DNA of 39,631 nucleotides, taken from positions 1 to 39,631 of the IMG/VR virus record IMGVR_UViG_3300044609_000415; one strand, written 5' to 3'. The notes under the pieces are model-generated. The model searched no databases. It had not been told where the DNA came from and saw only the letters and a program-made list of their open reading frames with translations. The position numbers and the translations under genes are program-made. Each line of letters starts with the position of its first letter. Position 1 is the first letter of the stretch. Below, piece after piece: positions 10,878 to 13,766 of this stretch. Source of the stretch: a virus.

Positions 10878-10897
10878 AAGGGGGAGGGGTATAATAT

Positions 10898-12148
10898 ATG
10901 GAACGTACAAATATAGGCCTATTGAGAGAGTGCGCTCGAAATCTAGGTGTCAGCGACCCGTACGATGTAGCGGTGACACGTATGGATTTAGAAAACCTAT
11001 ACAAAGTGGCGCTGAAAAACGAAGCCGCTGCGCGCATAATCGCCGCACGTATTAACAGCAAACTGGCGGGGGCACTAACGCGGGGTTTACCCGACATATT
11101 AGGTGACACGCCAATTACGCCACAAATTGACAGCAATAAGGTTAAGGAGCTCGAAGCTCGTTTAGACAACGTTCAGCAAATGCTTGAAAACTATACAGAC
11201 AAAGTTTACGAGCGCATTGGTAAAATAAATGAGCTTGCACAAAACGCTGTCAAGCACGATGACATATGTAACATACTGTCAACACATACTGAGTCATTGC
11301 AAGATACTTTAAAACAGTATGTGTCTGCAAAAGTCATCGAAGCCGTGCGCGCCAATACGCCAATGCACCTAACCATGACACCTGCACCCGACGCACCGAA
11401 ACAGGATTTAGGGTTAGTACATTACAAAACGCCTCAAATATTGCAAACACTCCAAGCCGGTGTCAATGTGTATTTGCACGGCCCCTCTGGCTCTGGAAAA
11501 ACAACAGCCGCACAAACGTGTGCAAGCGCAATAGGCGTTGCGTTTTATTTTGCCGCTAAAATTGAAAGCGAGTATCTACTACTAGGTTTCAAGGATGCAC
11601 GCGGGGATACGGTACGCACTCAGTTTAGAGAGGCATATGAACATGGCGGTGTGTTTTTGTTTGACGAAATAGACGCCTCAAGCCCTGCCGCTGTAGTCGC
11701 GATGAACGCTGCATTAGCTAACGGTATATGCCCGTTCCCCGACGGTACTGTGACGCGCCACAAGGACTTTTACTGCATCGCGGCGGGTAATACAAAACTG
11801 ACTGGTGCAAATAGACAGTACAGTGGGCGTGCGCAGTTAGATGCCACGTCGGTGGATAGATTTGCGTTCATTGAGTTTGGGTACGATGAACAACTGGAGC
11901 GCGCTCTGGCGACCGTACCACAATGGGCTTTGCATGTGCAAGAATTACGTAAAATAGTTAAAGAGCGTGCGTTAAACCATTTAATCACACCCCGCGCCAC
12001 ACTCGACGGTTGCAGACTATTGCAAGCGGGCTTTTCATGGGGGGATGTTGAAAACATGGTCTGCTTCAAAGGTCTCGAAGCGGATACGGTCAAAAGCATC
12101 AAACAAGGTCTTAAAAAGCCTATTGTGCACCAGATTAGGGGTAGATAA
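10898..12148 (+). CDS. MoxR/CobS-type AAA+ ATPase
   Basis: 416 residues behind a very strong GGGGGAGGGG site. The N-terminal part (1-150) is helical with a likely coiled coil about 80-150. The AAA+ domain has Walker A GPSGSGKT (195-202), Walker B FLFDEID (254-259), sensor-1 AGNT (297-299) and a DRFAF arginine-finger region (320-324). The CPFPDGTVTRHKDF hairpin is typical of MoxR/AAA_5 members, which remodel protein complexes, often with a VWA-domain partner. The next gene overlaps by one base and may encode that partner. The target is unknown. Confidence 0.85.
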   Translation: MERTNIGLLRECARNLGVSDPYDVAVTRMDLENLYKVALKNEAAARIIAARINSKLAGALTRGLPDILGDTPITPQIDSNKVKELEARLDNVQQMLENYTDKVYERIGKINELAQNAVKHDDICNILSTHTESLQDTLKQYVSAKVIEAVRANTPMHLTMTPAPDAPKQDLGLVHYKTPQILQTLQAGVNVYLHGPSGSGKTTAAQTCASAIGVAFYFAAKIESEYLLLGFKDARGDTVRTQFREAYEHGGVFLFDEIDASSPAAVVAMNAALANGICPFPDGTVTRHKDFYCIAAGNTKLTGANRQYSGRAQLDATSVDRFAFIEFGYDEQLERALATVPQWALHVQELRKIVKERALNHLITPRATLDGCRLLQAGFSWGDVENMVCFKGLEADTVKSIKQGLKKPIVHQIRGR

Positions 12149-12987
12149 TGCGTCAACAGATTAAACCAGAGACGTCAAAATATCGTTTTGACAGTTTGCC
12201 CGAATACTCGCAGTGGTTGACAGTCACGCCCAGAACTTGGCGATATGACGATAGCCAAAGAGAAAGAGGCTATCGATGGGATTTGGGTGCAGGGTACGAC
12301 AAGGCATGCGATCTAGCCCGTTACGGTTGGATAGAGGGTGCGCAAAATATGCAAGACAAACTAAAGGCGTTTACGCCCATGTCGGTTGCACCAGATACGT
12401 TAACCGATTTTTACGGCTATAGGCCGCATGTAGCTAGGTATTGTGCAGGCGCGCCCGCCAGCATGATAAGATATGACCGCGAAGGCCGTGACGGTTCGGG
12501 CCGCGTTGTTACGTTGCTTGTACCTATTGCAGTTAATCACCTTACGGAAGCTGAATGCTTCAAAAACTTTGGCGTCGGTGTTGTGCAGTACATTAATCAG
12601 TTGGAAACTGACGGACTACGCGTCGAAGTACACTCTGGAATTGCTTTGGAGTATAACAGGCATAGAATGACATGCACTGTACAAATCAAATCAGCAGATC
12701 AACAGCTAGACTTAGCAGTGCTGGCGTTTGCGATAGGACACCCCGCTATGTTTAGACGGTTGGGTTTTGCCATGATCGAACGTTCGGCATTGCCAGAGAC
12801 GGGCAGTTATGGCGGGGCTCGTGACATGGAAGTCAGTGACATGCTGGACGCGCCTAACGGCCTAATCGTACTCAATGGCGCTACTAAGTCGAACAGTCTG
12901 GCGCGTACACCTGAGGATGCTTTTAAGTACATAGGTGAAAAAATTGAAGACGCGATGGAGCAACAGCAAAAGGAGAAAGAAACATGA
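12148..12987 (+). CDS. DUF7192-like partner of the AAA+ ATPase
   Basis: 279 residues, overlapping the ATPase stop by one base (TAATG). It starts with a SLPEYSQWLTVTPRTW motif and a tryptophan-rich front. The central part (about 125-215) has a Rossmann-like alternation with IAVNHLTEAECF, LRVEVHSGIALEY, and LDLAVLAFAIGHPAMFRRLGF, a pattern I associate with phage DUF7192 proteins next to AAA+ genes. A VWA-like fold is my inference. No MIDAS DxSxS motif is visible. The tail is E/Q/K-rich. The pair may act as a chaperone-like complex during early infection. Confidence 0.65.
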   Translation: MRQQIKPETSKYRFDSLPEYSQWLTVTPRTWRYDDSQRERGYRWDLGAGYDKACDLARYGWIEGAQNMQDKLKAFTPMSVAPDTLTDFYGYRPHVARYCAGAPASMIRYDREGRDGSGRVVTLLVPIAVNHLTEAECFKNFGVGVVQYINQLETDGLRVEVHSGIALEYNRHRMTCTVQIKSADQQLDLAVLAFAIGHPAMFRRLGFAMIERSALPETGSYGGARDMEVSDMLDAPNGLIVLNGATKSNSLARTPEDAFKYIGEKIEDAMEQQQKEKET

Positions 12988-13160
12988 AAAGAGCTTTAAA
13001 GCAACTACCGACTAAATCTGTGCCTGCCGTTACGTTTGTGTGCAGTCATTGCAATTTCCAAAGTTACGCCACGTATGCGGCTAAGCGACATGCTAAGGTG
13101 ACAGGACATTGTGTCTCTAAACAGTTTACAGATGAGGTTATAAACGATGCCACAAGCTAA
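12984..13160 (+). CDS. C2H2 zinc-finger small protein (58 aa)
   Basis: Starts at ATG 12984 behind AGGAG and overlaps the preceding stop as ATGA. It holds FVCSHCNFQSYATYAAKRH followed by H42: Cys-x2-Cys-x12-His-x5-His, a classic C2H2 finger (Cys20, Cys23, His36, His42). It is basic at the front and acidic at the end, so DNA or protein binding is likely. Whether it is linked to the AAA+/DUF7192 pair beyond co-translation is unknown. Confidence 0.75.
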   Translation: MKRALKQLPTKSVPAVTFVCSHCNFQSYATYAAKRHAKVTGHCVSKQFTDEVINDATS

Positions 13161-13299
13161 ATGCCCCCAGCCTGTATTTAGCGGTATGGATGGATACCTA
13201 TGCCCTAAATGCGGTATCGCTTGGGACCGCAACGAAGAAAAACCCGCGTGTAACTTTGAGAAGCGCGCACCCACGTTCTTTTACAGAAAGGCAAGATAA
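13147..13299 (+). CDS. Zinc-ribbon small protein (50 aa)
   Basis: Starts at ATG 13147 inside the end of the preceding gene and stops at 13299, overlapping the next ATG by one base. It holds Cys6, CPKCG (19-23) and Cys35 (KPAC), a four-cysteine set for one zinc. It is basic at the C-terminus (FFYRKAR). Very small zinc ribbons are frequent among phage early genes; the role is unknown. Confidence 0.65.
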   Translation: MPQAKCPQPVFSGMDGYLCPKCGIAWDRNEEKPACNFEKRAPTFFYRKAR

Positions 13300-13766
13300 T
13301 GGCAGAAATGACATACTACCTTGATTGCGAGTTTGACGGGCACAACGGGCCGTTACTGAGTATTGCGATGATACCTAAAACCGACGATGAATCTATTTAC
13401 ATACAAACACGCACAATAGCGAAAAACCTTTGGGCTATTGCGAACGTCATACCGTACATGGACGTCGAATTTGCTGACACCAGTATTGTTTGCAACATCG
13501 AAGAAGTGGGCGGATACTTGCGAAAATATTTGCAAGGTCTAAAAGGCTTTAAAGTAATTAGCGATAGTATCGTTGATATTAAATATTTTTGCGATGCTTT
13601 CAGTACGGACTTTGAAGGTAACTACTTTTCTAACGATCATGCACAAATAGTTTTTGAAGTGCATAACGTCACTTCGTACCCAACAGACACGCCATATCGT
13701 GCTTGGGCTGTCCAACACAATGCGTGGTGGGATGCACACGCACTCAAATACGCAATGCAACCTTAA
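13299..13766 (+). CDS. DEDDh-type 3'-5' exonuclease
   Basis: 155 residues. The DEDDh residues are visible: Asp9 and Glu11 in YLDCEFDG, a middle Asp in VISDSIVDIKYF, and a C-terminal HNAWWDAHALKYA giving His140 and Asp145 with the H-x4-D spacing of the h subtype. The size and spacing resemble the compact Rv2179c-like 3'-5' exoribonucleases. Such enzymes trim RNA or single-stranded DNA with two metal ions. It is the only gene of this early cluster with an evident catalytic activity. Confidence 0.8.
   Translation: MAEMTYYLDCEFDGHNGPLLSIAMIPKTDDESIYIQTRTIAKNLWAIANVIPYMDVEFADTSIVCNIEEVGGYLRKYLQGLKGFKVISDSIVDIKYFCDAFSTDFEGNYFSNDHAQIVFEVHNVTSYPTDTPYRAWAVQHNAWWDAHALKYAMQP

Follow-up and report, generated by a model that had tools for sequence, protein, structure and literature searches.

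Overlapping Genes Headed by an AAA+ ATPase

The locus considered here raises the question of whether a run of overlapping phage genes, headed by an AAA+ ATPase, encodes a single machine and, if so, which of the genes belong to it and on what it acts. The window is the whole of the IMG/VR virus record IMGVR_UViG_3300044609_000415, a stretch of 39631 bases. Its replication genes lie on the plus strand, whereas the genes for packaging and the virion are encoded on the minus strand; its portal bears a distant likeness, at 28–30% identity, to proteins of Myxococcus phage Mx8 and of Bradyrhizobium and Stenotrophomonas phages.

Five genes, designated A to E, overlap head to tail on the plus strand (Table 1), and the open reading frames of A–D are intact. 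An earlier note had described four genes overlapping by 1–14 bases, and the overlaps found between A and B, B and C, and C and D are indeed 1, 4, and 14 bases. The start of gene E sits on the stop codon of gene D, so the coupling runs past D. The same note credited the group with the strongest early ribosome site, and the site of gene A does rank first, at −11.8 kcal/mol against −9.9 for the next, among 27 positions listed by hand (two of which, 10789 and 13780, are not start codons) and compared with an anti-Shine-Dalgarno sequence. A TATAAT sequence is also present at 10890–10895, after the Shine-Dalgarno sequence and before the start codon of gene A; inspection by eye showed no good −35 element, and the TATAAT may be due to chance.

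Table 1. Features of the gene A–E locus, in window coordinates, with the basis of each assignment.
Feature	Position	Strand	Basis or remark
Shine-Dalgarno of gene A (GGGGGAGGGG)	10880..10889	+	ends 8 bases before ATG
Gene A, 416 aa, MoxR-clade AAA+ ATPase	10898..12148	+	Pfam/PHROG, model
Gene B, 279 aa, DUF7192, predicted VWA-fold partner without MIDAS	12148..12987	+	Pfam PF23822, model
Strand-helix-strand of B at the NorD finger position, residues 84–109, with G90, G101, P103	12397..12474	+	DSSP on model
First core strand and DxSxS-position loop of B (PIAVNHLT), residues 119–134	12502..12549	+	register may be off by one or two residues
Helical segment of B with HPAMFRR, residues 183–211	12694..12780	+	HPSMLRR in most relatives
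Second MIDAS aspartate position of B (NG), residues 243–244	12874..12879	+	register inferred from last core strand of model
Gene C, 58 aa, C2H2-like finger	12984..13160	+	sequence
Gene D, 50 aa, four-cysteine zinc ribbon	13147..13299	+	sequence; PHROG 35049, 0.0025
Gene E, 155 aa, RNase H-like	13299..13766	+	PHROG 2259 'RNase H', 5.2e-16

The Motor

Gene A was initially read as an AAA+ ATPase, and the Pfam matches agree (AAA, 9.9e-10; AAA_5, 1.3e-8). It also matches PHROG 249, labelled 'porphyrin biosynthesis', at 5e-47. In the predicted structure (model mfecda187affd; pLDDT 88.5, pTM 0.70), N-terminal helices (residues 1–153) are followed by an AAA+ core at about 155–411. When this model was compared with solved structures, CbbQ and NorQ took ranks 1–10 in VIA, with Z from 17.5 to 21.1 (CbbQ at best 21.1 and NorQ 20.3), and ranks 1–21 in Foldseek. 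NorQ and NorD form a MoxR AAA+/VWA pair that activates nitric oxide reductase. Midasin, CobS, CbbQ, and NorQ were among the solved chains matched by a sequence profile built from 13 relatives of A, with Rea1/Midasin the best match (9.9e-46) and CobS at 1.1e-14.

Residues G195, G200, K201, D256, E257, N298, T299, R321, and R366 are invariant in 72 aligned motors and correspond to Walker A and B, sensor 1, the arginine finger, and sensor 2. A beta-hairpin insert is predicted in helix 2 (helix 225–229, strands 231–232 and 238–239, helix 242–249), the hairpin being very short with two-residue strands. Overall, the model places gene A in the MoxR clade of AAA+ ATPases, with CbbQ and NorQ as its nearest folds.

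The Partner

Gene B is a member of DUF7192 (PF23822, 1.5e-24), a name of which no mention was found in the literature searched, where subscription papers were mostly out of reach. Its model, built from a 68-row alignment, was predicted with high confidence (m93c970c2f8fb; pLDDT 94.5, pTM 0.88). NorD, as chain G of the NorQD entries, filled Foldseek ranks 1–5 at E 1.4e-4 to 5.2e-2, with low TM-scores of 0.21–0.27. In VIA the matches included NorD (Z 8.4; rmsd 6.8, 189 residues aligned), Rea1-MIDAS (Z 8.3; rmsd 5.1, 184 aligned), and MDN1-MIDAS (Z 7.0; rmsd 3.5, 151 aligned), and the Z of 8.4 is close to the best values of 7–8 obtained by models without a clear match. The top nine are all VWA domains or VWA partners that belong to MoxR-clade motors, and all 50 of the matches listed are VWA-fold proteins, including entries for Ku, TFIIH subunits, integrin, adhesin, and TRAP. 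Against viral models, ranks 1–12 were seven named DUF7192 proteins and five unnamed proteins, followed by phage VWFA and CobT proteins at E 2.7e-5 onward.

Sequence comparison gave no such link. None of the 68 DUF7192 members matched the Pfam VWA models at E 0.1, and hhalign of DUF7192 against two phage VWA families returned a probability of 0.5 both times. The structural scores are modest, and the argument for a VWA fold in gene B lies in which proteins match rather than in how well they score. Descent of DUF7192 from VWA proteins would accord with the fold match and draws no support from sequence. The searches with A and with B were independent, and each led to a subunit of NorQ/NorD, so that the same solved complex is indicated twice. 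The prior suggestion that the MoxR ATPase has a VWA-type partner is thus supported by the predicted fold, which is not an unrelated one, and by the co-occurrence of A and B across phages described below.

VWA domains are described as binding a metal at a site (MIDAS) made up of a DxSxS motif that follows strand 1, a threonine, and an aspartate that follows strand 4 (PMC13036017; PMC7159879). The corresponding first and last aspartates would fall at residues 128 and 243 of gene B, positions placed by a weak hhalign register and by the strand ends in the model. Neither is present in the window's gene B, as had been expected of a partner without a visible MIDAS. Among the 68 DUF7192 rows, an aspartate is found at 128 in seven and at 243 in five (with three gaps at 243), and no row has both. 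Ten further divergent records have none at 128 and one at 243. On these residues, DUF7192 has lost the MIDAS metal site. DxSxS does occur within residues 118–140 in 4 of the 68 rows, and in two of them (L037 and L092) it is in register, a weak hint of an eroded MIDAS.

Other residues of the family are retained. G90 is kept in all of 78 rows, P103 and R203 in 77 each, and G101 in 74; within the 68 rows taken alone, neither G90 nor P103 varies. The part of B with the lowest mean entropy over the 68 rows is the HPSMLRR segment (residues 183–215, 1.78), which rules out the segment around the glycines (76–112, 2.38) as the most conserved. In the ten divergent records, only R203 of the HPSMLRR motif is kept throughout, with H198 in one and P199 in four.

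The G90-x10-G101-x-P103 element (residues 84–109) precedes the first core strand in the model of B. In PdNorD, a finger comprising residues 403–448 is described, whose helix contacts the helix-2 insert of NorQ; together with the NorD C-terminus, the finger holds the NorQ ring (PMC13036017). The MIDAS threonine and last aspartate of PdNorD are T534 and D562 (PMC9976466), so the finger precedes these residues of the metal site. Residues 84–109 of B may be equivalent to the NorD finger, equivalence here meaning position and secondary structure only. NorD MIDAS mutants are reported to keep NorQ binding and to lose activation of the target (PMC9976466), so by inference a DUF7192 protein, despite the lost MIDAS, could still be able to dock to the motor. 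In Rea1, the MIDAS loop also touches its own ring (PMC6624252).

Conservation of the Pair

The A–B gene pair is real and conserved. Of 107 records reached with DUF7192 as the starting point, 106 have a motor on the same strand at a distance of at most 862 bases from B, and in 102 it lies within 300 bases. The pair is present in 99 of 100 IMG/VR contigs, in all six phage records, and in the window, and the sole miss (L080) is a record that begins inside B at the contig end. When A was the starting point, DUF7192 adjoined the motor in all of the 39 nearest of 54 loci and in none of the 15 more distant, a scan that favours DUF7192-linked motors because the A profile was built from such motors. 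Two of the 39 pairs are weak (L144, 1.8e-3; L152, 7.9e-3, lost in a larger set), and by contig name four contigs (L129, L133, L139, and L140) are common to the two sets. In 8 of the 15 distant loci, an ORF with a MIDAS-type DxSxSM takes the place of DUF7192; in the other seven, no MIDAS-type ORF was seen in the fetched flank. Motor A matches 419 phage records, and the pair was present in all ten more of these that were fetched. Examination of the neighbourhood in phage databases, the check proposed at the outset, therefore upholds the association of A with B.

The order of the two genes is A–B in 86 and B–A in 41 of 127 distinct pairs, and no A–B fusion was found among those searched. On a quick tree of 142 motors, which has several long branches, gene order changes three times (two counting starred branches only) and presence of DUF7192 twice (one counting starred branches only). 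Named carriers of the pair include phages of Staphylococcus, Listeria, Lactobacillus, Enterococcus, Mycobacterium, and Gordonia, as well as of Sinorhizobium, Acinetobacter, Alteromonas, and Tunturiibacter, and the pair also occurs in an uncultured podovirus (L011) and an uncultured crAss-like phage (L181). Among Staphylococcus phages, 236 records are matched by the DUF7192 protein of phage Stab23, the number also matched by A, each gene being counted separately.

A bacterial origin of the pair was considered and rejected, since one query against genome contigs found no relative among 18 pattern matches. A second query found 3 of 50, all of them contigs of 3.9–5.2 kb from metagenome-assembled genomes; two of these carry the pair, and the third is cut. 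A plasmid scan gave no match. Nor did a second VWA gene accompany the pair, as VWA_2 exceeded its cut-off in none of 49 pair records. Of the six weaker VWA_2 matches, one is in Mycobacterium phage Faith1, at 1.4e-6, and the other five have E values of 0.002–0.005. The two that were placed by hand, in L038 and L049, lie within the AAA gene and seem to be spurious. Faith1 has, besides gp135, a second DUF7192 gene, gp127 (L009:7485-8336); its weak VWA match is separate, at 41369.

The two zinc proteins are distributed differently. The proposal of a C2H2 finger and a zinc ribbon agrees with the spacing C-x2-C-x12-H-x5-H in gene C and the four cysteines of gene D, both read from the sequence, Pfam giving matches below cut-off only. 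Among the 10143 ORFs of the collected loci, gene C matched only itself, and gene E likewise had no relative. With a profile built from four relatives and finding three more, gene D was detected in close kin only (L002, L003, L004, L006, L094, L095/L096, and L097), downstream of B at a variable distance and, in L003, without the first cysteine. The claim that A to D form one coupled module is thus not supported, as A and B alone are conserved; genes C and D may be accessories outside the conserved module. In two loci, L143 (3793–4830) and L153 (3787–4923), DUF7192 itself carries an N-terminal, zinc ribbon-like CxxC...CxxC. Such fusions were rejected as support because they show no enrichment, with 2 of 127 DUF7192 proteins compared to 23 of 753 ORFs of 200–450 aa.

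Comparison with Known Systems

NorQ/NorD resembles the A–B pair in that the two single-chain models match its two subunits and that B has an element at the finger position. In contrast to the 279-residue DUF7192 protein without MIDAS, NorD is described as a protein of 69–70 kDa that keeps a DxSxS-T-D MIDAS and has an N-terminal domain (PMC13036017; PMC9976466). Rea1/Midasin provides the best solved match of the A profile and, in its MIDAS domain, a top fold match of B, but it is one giant polypeptide with a MIDAS that acts on pre-60S ribosomes. CobS/CobT and the viral CobST described in PMC8651126 share with A–B the AAA+ clade, adjacent genes, and a common database label; CobT, unlike DUF7192, has a MIDAS.

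Phages possess other adjacent AAA+ and VWA-type genes. Among them are gp24/gp25 of phage N4, reported to belong to the core gene set of the N4-like phages (PMC4193335), as well as cobS/'peptidase' of cyanophage S-SSM7. N4 gp25 carries DTSGS and the S-SSM7 partner DWSGSM, and neither matches the DUF7192 profile. By their description, orf66 and orf63 of Bacillus phage 0305phi8-36, two subunits of a MoxR-type chaperonin (PMC2147016), are also comparable. Loss of the metal site has a described counterpart in the vWA domains of FtsH- and beta-propeller-containing systems, a subset of which lack one or both aspartates, as does DUF7192 (PMC7159879). Unlike the phage A–B pair, these are cellular, multi-gene conflict systems.

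A Proposed Two-Component Machine

By analogy with these systems, A and B are likely to be the two components of a remodelling machine that is encoded by the phage and belongs to the MoxR AAA+/VWA type, with a mechanism that would be like that of NorQ/NorD. The motor A would assemble as a hexameric ring, on which B would dock with its finger-like element (residues 84–109) entering the pore. ATP hydrolysis by A would then move the adaptor B, and B, once moved, would remodel a target held through another of its faces. Since B has no MIDAS, it would have to grip that target without a metal bridge, unlike NorD, CobT, and Rea1. As to the target, our guess is that it may be an enzyme or complex that takes part in replication or in nucleotide metabolism and is engaged early in infection. 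Only 7 of 16 annotated records (L010, L012, L013, L181, L182, L184, and the window) have replication or nucleotide genes in the flank that was fetched, an uncontrolled count, and head genes adjoin the pair in L008, so this guess is weak.

Alternative Explanations

The absence of a sequence link to VWA proteins and the modest structural scores would also be expected if B bound A as a Rossmann-like adaptor that merely resembles the VWA fold and did not descend from it. That is rather improbable given that the structural matches listed for B are VWA-fold proteins throughout, headed by those of MoxR-clade systems; the in-register DxSxS of two members weakly points the same way. The remaining alternatives concern function. 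The pair could serve virion assembly or ride in the virion, for which PMC7159879 cites a precedent in the MoxR-vWA pair of an archaeal virus. Consistent with this, the head genes of L008 adjoin the pair, on the other strand, and in Sinorhizobium phage phiM5 a small ORF (L184:1349-1546) that lies inside the ATPase gene in another frame is annotated as detected in particles. The pair of the window, however, shares the plus-strand arm with the replication genes and is separate from the structural genes on the minus strand, and we regard a role in the virion as unlikely. We are equally doubtful that the pair acts early in infection to disable a defence or transcription complex of the host, as the earlier note envisaged. 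The strong ribosome site of gene A and its place before the replication genes, in an arm assumed to be early, would suit such a role, but across hosts so diverse a shared target would need to be very general.

A cobalamin function would make A and B a phage CobS and CobT substitute, auxiliary metabolic genes that boost cobalamin synthesis with host CobN, which viral CobST has been proposed to use (PMC8651126). The 'porphyrin biosynthesis' label of PHROG 249 and the presence of CobS among the solved relatives of A speak for it, and CobS of Alteromonas phage R22Y has been discussed as a vitamin B12 gene, in a host described as without CobS and with its role called speculative (PMC11705849). Against this, the single place in R22Y matched by A (L176:2986-4626) adjoins DUF7192 (E 2.8e-15); the public record is unannotated, and the matched motor is likely gp53 of that study. 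No relative of N4 gp25 was found in R22Y. The partner adjoining the motor has no MIDAS, unlike CobT, and CobN (PF02514) is absent from all 49 pair-bearing records, some of which may be fragments, while 5 of 14 controls were positive. CobT_C was also absent from the 49, a weak point because this model detected two of eight phage MIDAS-type ORFs, below cut-off. To our knowledge, moreover, Staphylococcus, Lactobacillus, and Enterococcus, which are among the hosts, lack the aerobic CobNST route. A cobalamin role is therefore very improbable, and the 'vitamin B12 gene' label is probably wrong for a DUF7192-linked motor. The haloarchaeal virus CobST, with its MIDAS, is a different pair and lies outside this verdict.

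Significance for Phages Carrying DUF7192

Returning to the remodelling machine, it may be that DUF7192 marks a widespread class of phage MoxR systems, each with a metal-free VWA adaptor that has kept its docking element, and that most of the 419 phage records matched by the motor, many of them under the label CobS or 'porphyrin biosynthesis', carry this machine rather than a B12 gene. With the pair checked in 16 named phage records, we consider this broader statement evenly balanced. If the proposal is true, the target would be held in a way not described for the VWA partners of MoxR motors. DUF7192 occurs in phages whose hosts include Gram-positive, Gram-negative, and gut bacteria; the proposal would provide this domain with a fold and a working hypothesis, and it would separate the DUF7192 pair from the cobalamin-gene reading now entering phage ecology. 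With the motor retained and the metal site gone, the family may also offer a natural test of the role of MIDAS in MoxR machines.
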